NCBI RefSeq assembly: GCF_000787775.1
Contig: NZ_BBPM01000018.1
Span: 73,614 to 128,087 of the forward strand
DNA from: Streptacidiphilus carbonis
GTDB lineage: Bacteria > Actinomycetota > Actinomycetes > Streptomycetales > Streptomycetaceae
Direction: 5' to 3'
Length of the DNA: 54,474 nucleotides
Both the position numbers and the translations under genes were made by a program. This document shows positions 7,513 through 21,257 of the stretch, one piece after another; the first letter of the stretch is position 1; each line of letters starts with the position of its first letter. The notes under the pieces were generated by a model. The model was not told the origin of the DNA. It did no database searches and saw only the letters and a program-made list of their open reading frames with translations.

Positions 7513-8019
7513 GACCGTCCTCCGCAGCTGATCCGCGTCACGTTGAGCCTCCTGGCTGGTACGAGCTGGTACAAAGCGTCACCGGCACGGCCGTGGCGAC
7601 AGACGTCTTCCCCGACGTCCGAGCCGCTGACCGCCTCCGCACAACCAACGACCGTCACCCGAATGAGTTACGGGCCCGACGATCGCCTCCACCACTCTAT
7701 GTGGTCGACCCGTTACGGATCATCCACCGCGCAGTGCACTCCGGCGCACAGGCGCCGCGCACACAGCGCGCACACGTCGCACAGGGCTCCGCAGCCGACG
7801 GCCGAACCCGGCGTGGCGACCGCATTCGGCCTACCTCCAGCCCCAACGAGTACCCCCAGTCGCAGGACACGCCACCGCTCCTTTCGTCTGGTTTATGAGA
7901 TTTTCAGAACGTAGGACACATATGCAACGCTGATGGCCTCTTGTCCGATTAAATCTATGTGAGTCATATTTTCATCTACTAGGACCGGACCGCACCACGA
8001 CCTGAGGGAATGAGCAGCA
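7513..8019. promoter_or_regulatory. 507-bp divergent control region between bldM and whiD
   Basis: No convincing gene lies here; weak frames lack codon bias and starts. The bldM side holds the SigBldN-type promoter described separately and a further CGTAAC hexamer on the minus strand at 7712-7717. The whiD-proximal 160 bases (about 7870-7990) are strikingly AT-rich for this genome, consistent with promoters for whiD. A GAGGGA ribosome site precedes whiD. Confidence 0.75.
7645..7672 (-). promoter_or_regulatory. SigBldN-type promoter for bldM
   Basis: Read on the minus strand the region gives CGTAAC, a 16-base spacer and CGTTGG. This fits the CGTAAC-N16-CGTTG(A) signature reported for the developmental sigma factor BldN, whose known target is bldM p1. 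The start point would fall about 125 bases upstream of the bldM start codon. Confidence 0.8.
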
Positions 8020-8376
8020 ATGGCAGACTTCTCCCGCCTCCCCGGCCCCAACGCCGATCTCTGGGACTGGCAGCTCTCCGCCGCCTGCCGCGGTGTCGAC
8101 AGCTCCCTCTTCTTCCACCCCGAGGGCGAGCGAGGGGCAGCACGCAGCTCCCGCGAGCAGTCCGCCAAGGAGGTCTGCTCCCGTTGCCCGGTGCGCACCG
8201 AGTGCGCCACGCACGCTCTGGCCGTACGCGAGCCGTACGGCGTCTGGGGCGGGCTGACCGAGGACGACCGCGAGGAACTGCTGGGCCGCACCCGGCACCG
8301 TCCAGGCGCGAGCAGCGACCTCGACACAGAGACAGAGACAGAGGCAGAGGCAGACCTGGCGCCCAGCCGTCACTGA
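8020..8376 (+). CDS. whiD: WhiB-family iron-sulfur regulator WhiD
   Basis: This 118-residue Wbl protein has the four cluster cysteines C23, C53, C56 and C62 (C-x29-C-x2-C-x5-C), which ligate a 4Fe-4S cluster, and the GVWGG turn at 74-78. The start MADFSRLPGPNADLWDWQL matches remembered Streptomyces WhiD. WhiD is needed for late spore maturation, and Wbl proteins of this type bind region 4 of the principal sigma factor. The C-terminus ends in an acidic TETETEAEAD tail encoded by a hexamer repeat (8326-8354), outside the conserved core. It is transcribed divergently from bldM. Confidence 0.97.
   Translation: MADFSRLPGPNADLWDWQLSAACRGVDSSLFFHPEGERGAARSSREQSAKEVCSRCPVRTECATHALAVREPYGVWGGLTEDDREELLGRTRHRPGASSDLDTETETEAEADLAPSRH
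8326..8354 (+). repeat. Hexanucleotide tandem repeat in the whiD 3' end
   Basis: ACAGAG occurs three times, followed by one GCAGAG and a partial copy, coding for a Thr-Glu/Ala-Glu tail. The unit length keeps the frame if copies are gained or lost. Confidence 0.8.
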
Positions 8377-8438
8377 CCAGGGGAAACGTCAGAAGAATCG
8401 TTTCTTCACCCCCGGTGCGCACAGCGCGCCGGGGCAAC

Positions 8439-9437
8439 TCAGCGGGCCGGGACGGGCACCCGGGCCAGCCGGGCCAGCATCAGCTCCACCGCCGGCACCT
8501 GCGCCAGGTCCGGCAGCGTCAGCGCGACGACCTCGCGGAACACCCCCGAGGCCAGCGGCACCACGGCCACCCCGGCCGACCGCACCGACGCCAGCGCCAG
8601 CTCCGGCAGCACCGCGACGCCCAGACCCGCGCCGACCAGGCCAAGCACCGCCGGGTAGTCATCGGTTGCGAAGTCGATCCGGGGCGCGAACCCCTCCTCG
8701 GCGCACATGTCCACGAGATGGCCCCGGCACTGCGGGCAGCCCGCGATCCACTGCTCGTCGGCCAGCTCGGCCAGGAACACCGGGTCGTCCTCGCCGCGCC
8801 CGGCCAGCCGGTGCCCGGCGGCGACCACGCCCACCAGCCGGTCCTCCAGCAGCGGCCGGACCACCAGGTCGGACCAGTCGCAGGCGGCCGCCGAGACGGA
8901 GGCCTCCACCACGGCCTCGGCCCGCGCCTGCCGCCGCGACCCGCCCCCGTCGTCCAACGGCAGATGGAGCTCGGTGACGCGTCCCGGATAGCGGAAGGCC
9001 AACGCCACCTCGCAGTCCCCGCCGCGCAGCATCGCCAGCGACTCGGGCGGCTCAGCCTCGGTCAGCGACACCCTGATGCCCGGCTGCGCCTCGCGCACCC
9101 CGGCCACGGCCGCCGGCACCAGCGTCGAACTCGCCGTCGGGAAGGACACCAGCCGCACCCGGCCGGCCCGCAGCCCGGCGATCGCCGCCAACTCCTCCTC
9201 GGCCGCGGTGAGCCCGGCCAGGATCCCGGCGGCGTGCCGCACCAGCACCTCGCCGGCTTCGCTGAGCCGCACCCCCCGGCCGACCCGCACCACCAGCGGC
9301 GTCCCCACCGACTTCTCCAGCGCCTTCATCTGCTGGCTCACCGCAGGCTGGGTGTACCCGAGCTCCCGCGCGGCAGCGGAGAACGAACCGGTCCGCGCGA
9401 CAGCGCGCAGCACACGAAGATGACGGGCCTCGATCAT
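8439..9437 (-). CDS. LysR-family transcriptional regulator
   Basis: A 332-residue LysR-type regulator. The N-terminal winged helix (residues 1-60: HLRVLRAVARTGSFSAAARE then YTQPAVSQQMKALE) is followed by the periplasmic-binding-like effector domain. That domain carries a cysteine cluster, GCPQCRGHLVDMC, plus other cysteines, which could bind a metal or respond to redox state. No target operon is obvious: groEL1 lies upstream across a repeat, and whiD converges on its 3' end. The effector is unknown. Confidence 0.93.
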   Translation of the reverse strand: MIEARHLRVLRAVARTGSFSAAARELGYTQPAVSQQMKALEKSVGTPLVVRVGRGVRLSEAGEVLVRHAAGILAGLTAAEEELAAIAGLRAGRVRLVSFPTASSTLVPAAVAGVREAQPGIRVSLTEAEPPESLAMLRGGDCEVALAFRYPGRVTELHLPLDDGGGSRRQARAEAVVEASVSAAACDWSDLVVRPLLEDRLVGVVAAGHRLAGRGEDDPVFLAELADEQWIAGCPQCRGHLVDMCAEEGFAPRIDFATDDYPAVLGLVGAGLGVAVLPELALASVRSAGVAVVPLASGVFREVVALTLPDLAQVPAVELMLARLARVPVPAR

Positions 9438-9502
9438 CCCCCCAGCATAAGCGCGTCTATGACATCAGACCGAAACATGTGCACGGACTTATGCAACAGC
9501 AA

Positions 9503-9529
9503 GGGGCGCGAGGAACTGCGCGACCAGCC
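9503..9529 (+). repeat. Dispersed intergenic repeat, copy 2
   Basis: It matches copy 1 with a single change in the first half (GGGGCGCGAGGAACTGCGCG) and ends ACCAGCC. It lies between the LysR gene and groEL1. Confidence 0.85.
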
Positions 9530-9572
9530 ACCCCAGAAGGATGAACTCGCCGCAGACAGCTCCCCGCGCCCC
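9503..9572 (-). terminator. Inverted repeat downstream of groEL1
   Basis: GGGGCGCGAGGA (9503-9514) pairs with TCCCCGCGCCCC (9561-9572) with one mismatch and a 46-base loop. One arm is the dispersed repeat. It lies just past the groEL1 stop and may terminate the groES-groEL1 transcript. Confidence 0.5.
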
Positions 9573-9585
9573 GAGTGGGTCCTAC

Positions 9586-11304
<1,719 letters not shown>

Positions 11305-15205: not shown

Positions 15206-15734
15206 CGTGGCTCAGTGCTCCTACGTCGTGAAGGTTCTTCGGGTTCCCGGCGGGGTCGTCCAGCCGCATCACCAGGGCGTCGACCCCGGAGGGCTGGTAG
15301 TACTTCGGGCGGATGCCGATGGGCTGGAATCCGAAGCGCTCGTAGAGCCGCTGGGCGCGCGGGTTGTCCACCCTGACCTCCAGCAGCAACTCCTCGCAGC
15401 CCGCCGCGGCGGCCTGGTCGACCAGCCGGCCCAGCAGCCGGCTGCCCAGGCCGCTGCCCCACTGCGGCCGGGCCGAGGCGATGGTCTGCACGTCCCCGCT
15501 GCCCGCCACCGCCATCAGCCCCGCGTAGCCGACGACCGATCCCCGGGCGTCCTCGGCGACGGTGTACCAGCGGGTTGCCCCCGGGTGCCTGGTGTCGGCG
15601 AGCTCGGACCAGAACATCCCGGCCGACCAGGCGTCCTCGGGGAACAGCTCGCGCTCCAGCTCCAGCACCGGGGCGATGTCCCACCAGCGCATCTCCCGCA
15701 GCGTCAGGCCGCCGTTCGCGGACCGGGCCTTCAT
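15198..15734 (-). CDS. rimI: Ribosomal protein S18 alanine N-acetyltransferase RimI
   Basis: A 178-residue GNAT acetyltransferase with the acetyl-CoA loop region [15 protein letters not shown] and the C-terminal [23 protein letters not shown]. RimI acetylates the N-terminal alanine of S18; in actinobacteria it can act more broadly. Its ATG overlaps the tsaB stop (ATGA), and it overlaps tsaD by 8 bases, forming one operon. Confidence 0.95.
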
Positions 15735-16405
15735 GCCGGGAGCACCGTCTTGTAGTTCTTGGGCACCTCGGCGTCCGGACGGCGCAGGTAGAGCGGCGTC
15801 GGCGGGAGCAGCGGGCGCCCGGCTGCGAGCTCCCCGGCCGCGTACGCCGCGAGCGCCGCGGCCGACTGGTGCTCCGGCATGCCTTCAGGGACGTTGCGGA
15901 ACACCTCCGGGTAGAGCAGCGCGCCCGCGCCCACCGCGGGCAGCCCGCCGAGCCGCTCGGCCAGCTCGCCCGGGCGGTCCACCTGCGGGCCCTCCGCACG
16001 GCCCGCGGCGGCGTCGTAGCGGGCCCAGTAGACCTCCTTGCGGCGTGCGTCCGTGGCGACGGTGAAGGGGCCGCTCAGGCCCGCCTGGCGGGCCGCGTGG
16101 GCGATCCCGTCCAGGGTGCAGACGCCGTGCACCGGGATGCCCAGCGCGTGGCCCAGCGCGGCCGCCGTCGCCAGTCCCACCCGCAGCCCGGTGTACGGGC
16201 CGGGGCCGACCCCGACCGCCAGCGCGCCGAGCTGCTCCTTGCCGACGCCGGCGGTGCGCAGCACCCGGTCGACGACGGGAAGCAGCAGCTCCCCGTGGCG
16301 CCTGGCGTCCACCTGGTCGGCGGAGGCCAGCACCGCCCCGTCCTCCGTGTCCAGGAGGGCGGCGGTGACGGCGGGGGTCGCGGTGTCGAACGCAAGCAGA
16401 AGCAC
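15731..16405 (-). CDS. tsaB: t6A-synthesis scaffold protein TsaB
   Basis: The 224-residue ASKHA-fold paralogue of TsaD supports the t6A complex without being the transferase. It starts MLLLAFDTATPAVTAALLD (GTG codon) and contains GVGPGPYTGLRVGLATA, typical of TsaB, but not the TsaD HxxxH site. It is the first gene of the tsaB-rimI-tsaD operon. It diverges from the L,D-transpeptidase-like gene across about 95 bases, where the decamer GACGTTCAGG and a related GACGTTCAGA occur as a direct repeat. Confidence 0.95.
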   Translation of the reverse strand: MLLLAFDTATPAVTAALLDTEDGAVLASADQVDARRHGELLLPVVDRVLRTAGVGKEQLGALAVGVGPGPYTGLRVGLATAAALGHALGIPVHGVCTLDGIAHAARQAGLSGPFTVATDARRKEVYWARYDAAAGRAEGPQVDRPGELAERLGGLPAVGAGALLYPEVFRNVPEGMPEHQSAAALAAYAAGELAAGRPLLPPTPLYLRRPDAEVPKNYKTVLPA

Positions 16406-16499
16406 GGCACCAGGTTAGACGTTCAGGCCGGGTTGGACGTTCAGAGGATCCGGGATGAGAAGCTGGGAGGGCACAGGGAGTCCACCGCTGGAGGAGAGA

Positions 16500-17069
16500 G
16501 TGGCAAGGTTCGGTACGGGCGCTGTCGTCACCACGCTGACGGCCTCGGCGCTCGCGCTTGTCACGGTGCTGGCGCTGCAGGCCAAGAGCTCGGCCAACGT
16601 CACCTCGGCGGCCTCCGGCAAGCCGGGGGCCTCGGCCTCCGCCGCGGCGGGGGGCTCGGCCAAGGCCGGCGCCTCCCCCAAGCCTGCCGCCGTCCCGGCG
16701 CACTCGGGGACGGGCAAGCGGGTGGTCTACTCGCTGGGCGCCAAGCGGGTGTGGCTGGTGGAGGCGGCCGGCACGGCGAGCCGGACCTTCACGGTGCAGC
16801 CCAGCACGGTCAGCCCCAGCACCGGCACCTACAACGTGTACTCGCACAGCTCCGGGACCACGACCGGCTCGGACGGCGTCCAGATCAAGAACGTGGTGAT
16901 CTTCGCCGAGCGCGGCTCGACGGTCTTCGGTTTCAGCTCGGCGACGGACGGCACCACCGCGGCCCCGAATCCGGCCAAGAAGACCGGCGGCATCCGGGAG
17001 ACCCTGGGCGACGGGCAGGCGCTCTACGACTTCACGGTGGACGGCAGCAAGGTCGTCGTGGTCGCCTGA
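16500..17069 (+). CDS. Membrane-anchored L,D-transpeptidase-like protein lacking catalytic residues
   Basis: The 189-residue protein has a signal anchor (residues 5-28), an Ala/Ser/Gly/Lys linker to about 70, and a globular domain. That domain follows the YkuD layout: KRVVYSLGAKRVWLVE like the first strands, TYNVYSHS near the substrate loop, TVFGFSS where active enzymes have an IHG motif, and KTGGIRETLG (161-170) followed by ALYDFTVDGSKVVVV. In active L,D-transpeptidases the corresponding motif is SHGC[IV]R, so the His is Thr162 and the nucleophile Cys is Gly164. It is probably a non-catalytic wall protein. GTG 16500 has GGAGG at 5 bases; the frame also starts upstream at 16455. The assignment is from pattern reading only. 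Confidence 0.72.
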   Translation: MARFGTGAVVTTLTASALALVTVLALQAKSSANVTSAASGKPGASASAAAGGSAKAGASPKPAAVPAHSGTGKRVVYSLGAKRVWLVEAAGTASRTFTVQPSTVSPSTGTYNVYSHSSGTTTGSDGVQIKNVVIFAERGSTVFGFSSATDGTTAAPNPAKKTGGIRETLGDGQALYDFTVDGSKVVVVA

Positions 17070-17073
17070 CCGG

Positions 17074-17250
17074 TCAGGCGGCTGCCCGCGGCTCCAGCCC
17101 GGTCAGCTCGGGATCGTCGCCGGCCGCCGCCCGCTCCGGCTCCGCCTCCGCGGGCGGGGTGCTCACAACGGCGGCCGCTCGCGTCGCGGCCAGCAGGACG
17201 GCCATGCTGACGGGCTGCGCGTCCCCGCAGCGGGGCGTCGTACCGGACAT
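17074..17250 (-). CDS. Small hypothetical protein, 58 residues
   Basis: ATG at 17250 follows a strong GGGAGG ribosome site by 4-5 bases and gives MSGTTPRCGDAQPV followed by an Ala-rich helix and an acidic Glu/Pro/Asp C-terminus. It has one cysteine and no signal peptide or recognised domain. It lies 95 bases after tsaE in the same direction, so it could be the last gene of the alr-tsaE run. Its stop is 4 bases from the stop of the convergent L,D-transpeptidase-like gene. The ribosome site and placement support a real gene; function unknown. Confidence 0.55.
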   Translation of the reverse strand: MSGTTPRCGDAQPVSMAVLLAATRAAAVVSTPPAEAEPERAAAGDDPELTGLEPRAAA

Positions 17251-17345
17251 GTCGCCTCCCGTGACTGGCTTCCCAGGCGCTGACAACCACCATCTTCCCG
17301 ACAGCGCGTCGGAATAACAACCAAGGACGGGGATCTTGTCGGCGT

Positions 17346-17894
17346 TCAGACGCTGTCGACGGGTTCGCCGGCCCCGGCGGGCAGCAGCACCGCCCAGTCG
17401 GTACCCGCCCAGCGGTCGCCCAGACCCGTGAGGGTGACCCGTCGCTCGTCGTCGCCCTCGCCCGGCGCCTCGTCGCCGAGGGCACGCTCGATGCGGACCT
17501 CCAGCCGGGAGTCGGACAACTCCTCGACCCGGCCCTCGCCCCACTCCACGACCACCACCGAGTCCTGCAGCGAGACGTCCAGGTCCAGGTCCTCCATCTG
17601 GTCCAGGCCGCCGCCCAGCCGGTAGGCGTCGACATGGACCAGGGCCGGGCCGCCGGTCAGCGAGGGGTGCACCCGGGCGATCACGAAGGTCGGCGAGGTG
17701 ACCGCGCCGCGCACGCCCAGGCCGGCGCCGAGGCCGCGGGCGAGCGTGGTCTTGCCCGCGCCCAGCTCGCCGGAGAGCAGCACCAGGTCGCCCGGGCGCA
17801 GCAGCGGGGCCAGCCCGCGGCCGAGGTCCTGCATGGCCGCGGCGTCGGGCACGGTGACGGCGGTGACGGTCGGGGTGCTGCCGGTGCTGCCCAT
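17346..17894 (-). CDS. tsaE: tRNA t6A synthesis ATPase TsaE
   Basis: The 182-residue P-loop ATPase resets the TsaB-TsaD complex during t6A formation. It has Walker A GELGAGKTT (42-50), SPTFVIARVH, HVDAYRL and VVVVEWGEG, all hallmarks of the family. The C-terminus is longer and more acidic than in E. coli, as is common in actinobacteria. It follows the alpha/beta hydrolase by 72 bases. TsaE is separated from tsaB-rimI-tsaD by the small gene and the plus-strand transpeptidase-like gene. Confidence 0.96.
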   Translation of the reverse strand: MGSTGSTPTVTAVTVPDAAAMQDLGRGLAPLLRPGDLVLLSGELGAGKTTLARGLGAGLGVRGAVTSPTFVIARVHPSLTGGPALVHVDAYRLGGGLDQMEDLDLDVSLQDSVVVVEWGEGRVEELSDSRLEVRIERALGDEAPGEGDDERRVTLTGLGDRWAGTDWAVLLPAGAGEPVDSV

Positions 17895-20660: not shown

Positions 20661-21257
20661 TCAGGTGCCCGGCTTGCGGCCGAAGACCTCGACCGGGTCG
20701 TGCAGCCTGAGCACGCCCCACAGCCTGCGCGCGTCCCAGCTGCTCAGATTGACGCAGCCGTGCGAGCCGGGCGGGGCGGACATCGGCTCCTGGACGGCGT
20801 GGAAGGCCTCGCCGCCGGAGAAGAACTGGCTGTACGGCATGGCCACGCCGCCGTAGAGCGACGACAGATGGTGCCGGTCGCGCCAGTACACGTGCCACAA
20901 CCCGGTACGGGTCGCATAGCCCCTGCGGCCGGTCCTGACCGGGACCGGGCCGAAGAGCAGCTTCCTGCCGTCCTGCACCCACATCCGCTGGTGGGTGAGG
21001 TCCACGCAGGCGATCCGGCCCATGGCGGTGGGACACCGGCCGGACGCACCGGGAGCGGCGGCCTGCGCCGGCGCCCCGCCGGTCGCCACGATCCCGGCCG
21101 CGGTCACCGCCGCCGCCGCGAGCAGCACTCCCGCCCGCAGCACTCCAACCCGCGGCACTCCCGCCCGCAGCACCCTGGTCAGCTGCAGCAAGCCCTCACC
21201 CTTCCCTGGCCCGCCGTCCGCCGGAGCCGACAAACCGTCATGCTCCGCCGGAGGCAC
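20661..21257 (-). CDS. L,D-transpeptidase (YkuD family), secreted
   Basis: A short exported enzyme with a signal region (about 30-66, ending GAPAQAAA) and a YkuD domain. Catalytic residues are visible: FH with H153, and SHGCVN with nucleophile C168. Such enzymes make 3-3 crosslinks or attach proteins to peptidoglycan. The GTG start at 21257 has no clear ribosome site, and the first 25 residues are atypical for a signal peptide; a downstream GTG or TTG near residue 23-29 is possible. It is 39 bases after the NAD(P)HX repair gene and 70 before alr, so likely co-transcribed. Confidence 0.9.
   Translation of the reverse strand: MPPAEHDGLSAPADGGPGKGEGLLQLTRVLRAGVPRVGVLRAGVLLAAAAVTAAGIVATGGAPAQAAAPGASGRCPTAMGRIACVDLTHQRMWVQDGRKLLFGPVPVRTGRRGYATRTGLWHVYWRDRHHLSSLYGGVAMPYSQFFSGGEAFHAVQEPMSAPPGSHGCVNLSSWDARRLWGVLRLHDPVEVFGRKPGT

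Follow-up and report, generated by a model that had tools for sequence, protein, structure and literature searches.

A conserved pseudo-L,D-transpeptidase of the Streptomycetaceae, usually encoded between tsaB and tsaE, probably acts in the cell envelope by binding or regulation rather than by catalysis

It was concluded that a gene in the analyzed stretch of Streptacidiphilus carbonis DNA (54,474 nucleotides of contig NZ_BBPM01000018.1, hereafter the window) encodes a conserved pseudo-L,D-transpeptidase, which in the envelope of the cell probably has a binding or regulatory function and not a catalytic one. The preferred reading, to which a probability of roughly 0.6 was assigned, was that of a membrane-anchored, extracytoplasmic protein that would bind a ligand in its former active-site groove and, with no catalysis of its own, tether or regulate the assembly of the wall. 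The features of the gene and its surroundings are collected in Table 1.

Table 1. Coordinates in the window of the pseudo-L,D-transpeptidase gene, its parts and its neighbors.
Feature	Position	Strand	Basis
Pseudo-L,D-transpeptidase gene	16500..17069	+	GTG start, 189 aa, stop 17067-17069; aligned relatives
Ribosome-binding site GGAGGAG	16490..16496	+	Sequence, directly upstream of GTG
Hydrophobic membrane segment, residues 8-26	16521..16577	+	Kyte-Doolittle mean 2.17
Low-complexity Ala/Ser/Pro/Lys linker, residues 29-65	16584..16694	+	Sequence; poorly conserved in alignment
YkuD-derived domain (~120 residues), residues 66-189	16695..17066	+	Profile links
Asp125 of clade-specific GxDG motif	16872..16874	+	Asp in 161/161 Streptomycetaceae and f3 copies
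Ser146 at former catalytic His site	16935..16937	+	His in 0/162 copies from the order, 27/27 outside
KTGGIR (residues 161-166) replacing SxGC-hydrophobic-R	16980..16997	+	Cys in 0/162 copies from the order, 27/27 outside
Gly164 at Cys site	16989-16991	+	Within KTGGIR
tsaB, conserved neighbor	15731..16405	-	TIGR03725; near gene in 84/92 Streptomycetaceae genomes with flanked locus
tsaE, conserved neighbor	17346..17894	-	TIGR00150; near gene in 74/92 Streptomycetaceae genomes with flanked locus
Canonical L,D-transpeptidase with SHGC, possible non-obligatory partner	20661..21257	-	PF03734, E 1.1e-15

Gene and Protein

Judged by its aligned relatives, the open reading frame is real. The protein was conserved along its entire length, and a GTG-GC start was found at the equivalent place in most of the 32 relatives displayed. 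A longer reading of the frame began with an ATG at 16455; in most of the aligned relatives shown, what precedes the GTG bore no evident resemblance to it. A scan of positions 16350-17400 for promoters and terminators found none. The hydropathy analysis revealed one hydrophobic N-terminal segment, which supported the membrane anchor of the original prediction and may place the remainder of the protein outside the cytoplasm.

A small ORF of 58 aa (17074-17250, minus strand) was convergent with the pseudoenzyme gene, the stops of the two being 4 bases apart. The window's copy of this ORF had no Pfam match at E ≤ 1. A stretch similar to LLAA..AA..VSTPP was observed in the ORFs at the equivalent place in three other loci (L029, L143 and L191).

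Relation to YkuD Domains

The domain had been assigned to the YkuD fold by eye, and this assignment was supported by profile comparison, by Cys-bearing relatives and by the tree. When searched directly, the window's full-length protein matched nothing in Pfam and NCBIfam at E ≤ 10, its domain gave no match to PF03734 at E ≤ 1, and nothing convincing was found for the sequence in the PDB. Two alignments were compared: A4, containing 32 Cys-less copies from the order, and A3, containing 24 Cys-bearing sisters from other Actinomycetes. The profiles of A4 and A3 were matched by hhalign from end to end with a probability of 99.9 and an E value of 8.7e-37, and 39% of the columns across the entire domain were identical. 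All 24 members of A3 matched PF03734 (best E 7.1e-22), and the A3 profile found the YkuD structures 5bmq (E 2.4e-6) and 1y7m (E 0.0047) in the PDB. In the window's genome, the sole match of the A3 profile at E ≤ 0.001 was the pseudoenzyme gene itself (E 1.3e-20). Additionally, PF03734 was matched at E ≤ 1 by 17 of the 32 members of A4, the best E value being 6.1e-8.

Some data counted against the YkuD reading. For the window's protein and 14 others (15 of the 32 members of A4), no match to PF03734 was obtained even with E ≤ 1 allowed, and the A4 profile found no YkuD chain in the PDB and nothing relevant in NCBIfam. Ten PF03734 matches were present in the window's genome, and the eight that were aligned all carried [S/T]HGC. 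The comparison of A4 with these eight canonical domains was weak (probability 16, E 0.0015), when the same comparison for A3 gave a probability of 96 and an E value of 1.6e-9. The AlphaFold2 models, each built from three sequences (the window's protein, L002 and L003), reached a pLDDT of 35.0 for the full-length protein and 33.6 for the domain only. Taken together, the absent direct matches, the weak comparison with canonical domains and the low pLDDT would fit a protein with no kinship to YkuD, whose likeness arose by chance or convergence. Such an explanation was considered scarcely credible in view of the end-to-end match to Cys-bearing relatives that all match PF03734, and of the PF03734 matches among the Cys-less copies themselves. 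We conclude from the profile comparisons that the domain is homologous to YkuD by way of the sisters, and that the Cys-less branch is strongly diverged.

The tree comprised 56 rows and few columns (107), with the active-site stretch omitted, and was unrooted. A single branch (96/85; recovered in 98% of the bootstrap trees) set all 32 Cys-less rows apart from the others, with one label change. The Cys and His would be the older state, because they are present across PF03734. Further, the Cys-bearing profile was searched against 119 genomes of the order. Matches were obtained in 118 of them, and the best match per genome was no better than E 5.0e-26. Two f30 genomes gave about 1e-54 with the same profile, a yardstick that is not independent, as the f30 copies belong to the profile. 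No Cys-bearing orthologue was seen by profile search in the 119 sampled genomes of the order.

The Cys-bearing sisters carried the domain C-terminally, after a linker. The N-terminal stretch in two Cys-bearing relatives (L102 and L103) resembles a peptidoglycan-binding domain.

Active-Site Residues

The published motif of L,D-transpeptidases is hydrophobic-G-hydrophobic-HG(S/T)...(S/T)xGC-hydrophobic-R(M/L), and the mechanism described there needs a Cys-His pair (PMC12729407). Both the catalytic Cys of (S/T)xGC and the catalytic His of G-hydrophobic-H-G were missing from the window's protein. The motifs quoted in the original prediction were present, TVFGFSS at residues 141-147 and KTGG at the start of KTGGIR (residues 161-166), which was followed by ALYDF...KVVVV.

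The residues were read via a model of both groups, Cys-less and Cys-bearing, in the fetched loci, which were a subset of the matches found. After the removal of repeats, 162 distinct copies from the order were counted: 151 from the Streptomycetaceae, 10 from family f3 and one from family f2. The 27 Cys-bearing copies from outside the order came from 25 genomes, and the borderline L140 and L141 were kept among them. One locus, L123, was left out of the counts, being an unrelated canonical transpeptidase with SHGC caught by the profile.

At the His site, Ser was found in 141 of the 151 Streptomycetaceae copies, Gly in 5, Ala in 4 and Asp in 1, when the f3 copies carried Asp (6), Glu (3) or Ala (1), and the f2 copy carried Glu. 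The Cys site was occupied by Gly (136) or Ala (15) in the Streptomycetaceae and by Gly in all 10 f3 copies; Asp was read in the single f2 copy, a reading made uncertain by the adjoining alignment gaps. Both catalytic residues occurred together in every copy from outside the order. Because the substitutions were common to all copies read from the order, Ser146 and Gly164 were not due to chance or to a sequencing error. A local mutation was ruled out, since no copy read from the order kept either residue. The loss of the nucleophile and the His, as originally predicted, was supported by the profile comparison, the sister sequences and the tree. As to orthologues with an intact SHGC, none was found among the copies read from the order, and the Cys and His were kept in distant relatives, two of which occupy a partly matching locus; the loss is therefore old and clade-wide rather than local.

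Among the Cys-bearing copies (for example, L083, L091 and L104), His in the SHGC position was recorded in 7 of 27 only, and the others had SDGC, SAGC or GGC.

Other residues of the site were retained. Arg166 was present in all 162 copies from the order. Asp125 was replaced by Asn in the single f2 copy, and it was found in 6 of the 27 Cys-bearing copies. By this distribution (161/161 against 6/27), the Cys-less clade is subject to a constraint that is absent from its Cys-bearing relatives. Eight residues were invariant in the 151 Streptomycetaceae copies, namely Pro66, Arg74, Val76, Trp85, Asp125, Phe145, Arg166 and Val187.

A catalytic alternative was also considered, in which the active site has been rebuilt and Ser146, Asp125 or Thr162 perform some other chemistry in the former active-site groove. 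It would agree with the invariance of Asp125 in the Streptomycetaceae and f3, with Ser146 in most Streptomycetaceae copies and with Thr162 in 131 of the 151. However, the residue at the His site varied between Ser, Gly, Ala, Asp and Glu across the order, so that no single nucleophile was kept there, which argues against such an enzyme, and Asp125 by itself makes no known catalytic set. Hence, a new catalytic activity was regarded as quite improbable, and the non-catalytic reading was preferred.

Distribution and Selection

A protein search recorded a match to the pseudoenzyme in every one of the 150 genomes sampled from the host's family. With profile A1, matches were obtained in 98 of 99 genomes of the order, and the sole miss was a genome 81% complete. 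In the search of the class, 92 of 296 genomes matched at E ≤ 0.01, 28 of the 92 being from the host's family; some of the weakest class matches covered only the membrane segment or the linker, and these were excluded from use. One match was obtained when the window's own genome was searched with the pseudoenzyme protein. The nearest named relatives were those of Streptacidiphilus jeojiense (87% identity) and S. fuscans (57%). No relative was found in viral contigs, and no match in plasmids.

Some genomes of the family held two or three copies. The extra Cys-less copies included a tandem pair in G123 (L110) and second copies distant from tsaB in G121 and G056 (L142 and L145).

The domain dN/dS, estimated by a simple counting method, was 0.13-0.44 in 11 of 11 pairs; the gene is under purifying selection. 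The loss of both catalytic residues could in principle mark a decaying relic with no function. Such a decay was given next to no weight, as the gene was present in nearly every sampled genome of the family and the order, no internal stops were found among the matches listed in the family and order searches, and the dN/dS values were low in all pairs.

Gene Neighborhood

In the window, the gene was found in the neighborhood of the genes for TsaD, RimI, TsaB, TsaE, an alanine racemase and a canonical transpeptidase. Its usual position was between tsaB and tsaE. TsaB or TsaE was encoded within 4 kb in 85 of the 92 Streptomycetaceae genomes with a flanked locus, in 10 of 10 f3 genomes and in the one f2 genome. 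For the seven genomes with neither nearby, what was fetched may have been a second copy of the gene, or a stretch that was too short. Among the 128 loci with TsaB nearby, a count that includes several loci of the same genome, the gene was on the strand opposite to tsaB in 126.

In L188, a locus of a relative in the same genus, an ORF of 699 aa (7862-9961, minus strand) was located between the pseudoenzyme gene and tsaE; we take it to resemble a sedolisin-type acid protease. A gap of ~3 kb between the two genes was also observed in L003, L185 and L186.

The Cys-bearing relative of family f30 was found between RimI and an alpha/beta hydrolase plus alr in two of three genomes (L089 and L192, not L085), and these two loci were without TsaB or TsaE. 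The partly shared position speaks for orthology. The other Cys-bearing copies were mostly at different loci.

The original prediction had proposed that the pseudoenzyme could regulate an active transpeptidase such as the canonical one of the window. Among 20 larger regions, 9 had a match to the latter next to alr, which gave a weak indication of a tie, and the pseudoenzyme persisted where no match was found. An obligatory pairing of the two found no support in the neighborhood.

The conserved genes to the left and right have their role in tRNA modification rather than in the wall, which counts against a wall role. These neighbors, together with the conservation of Trp85, Phe135 and other positions in the core of the fold, would suit a protein-protein module with a partner unrelated to peptidoglycan, in which the former groove is merely the core of the fold. 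This was judged unlikely, as positions of the former active site (Phe145, Ser146, Gly163, Gly164 and Arg166) were among the 40 most conserved columns, and the membrane segment suggests a place in the envelope.

Discussion

Since the Cys-His pair is indispensable in the published mechanism, a protein with neither a thiol nor a general base would form no acyl-enzyme and would perform no cross-linking. The scaffold is retained and carries Arg166 together with the clade-specific GxDG motif, which precedes the strand of the former His. In the most likely mechanism, the former active-site groove would bind a ligand, either a stem peptide of peptidoglycan or an enzyme of the cell wall, and the protein, located at the membrane, would tether or regulate the assembly of the wall without catalysis.

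Among known proteins, the domain is related by profile, through the Cys-bearing sisters, to the YkuD-type L,D-transpeptidases (PF03734), such as YkuD of B. subtilis and Ldtfm of E. faecium. It shares with them the Gly-hydrophobic ahead of the His site and the Gly-x-hydrophobic-Arg around the Cys site, and Ldtfm is likewise described with a membrane helix (PMC12729407). In contrast, the pseudoenzyme is without the catalytic Cys and His, has a shorter loop between the two sites and carries the clade-specific GxDG. The sisters of A3 (GFHxIP...[S/x]xGC-hydrophobic-R) are alike in their identical columns, in their domain layout and in the partly matching locus of two f30 copies, but differ in keeping both catalytic residues and mostly in their loci. 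DpaA and Tlde1a represent the YkuD fold turned to other uses; unlike the pseudoenzyme, Tlde1a is reported to keep the catalytic Cys and His, and DpaA is described as hydrolytic. No report of a catalytically dead L,D-transpeptidase was found among the listed titles and abstract beginnings of the open-access literature searched by topic, nor was one found by a word search of a 2025 review.

In S. coelicolor, TsaE is SCO4747 and TsaB is SCO4750 (PMC4932002), so the orthologue would be SCO4748 or SCO4749. Of these, SCO4749 is the likelier one, because a small minus-strand ORF adjoins tsaE. SCO4749 is listed among genes paired by transcripts that converge and overlap, its pair being affected when RNase III is lost (PMC3765725). 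No mention of SCO4748 was found in the open-access literature searched. The YkuD proteins named in passages of a sigma-E study of S. coelicolor were SCO3194, SCO4934 and SCO0736, not the pseudoenzyme locus.

A bolder and tentative view, considered somewhat less likely than not, is that the recruitment of a catalytically dead L,D-transpeptidase to a core regulatory role in the envelope was a single event that preceded the radiation of the sampled order. The protein would be a membrane-tethered receptor reading peptidoglycan stems or wall enzymes via a remodelled groove (GxDG, GFS and TGG-hydrophobic-R).

Dead enzymes act as regulators in many other families, and the growth and sporulation of streptomycetes depend on the remodelling of the wall. 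The pseudoenzyme gene described here is nearly universal, and uncharacterized, in the sampled streptomycetes.
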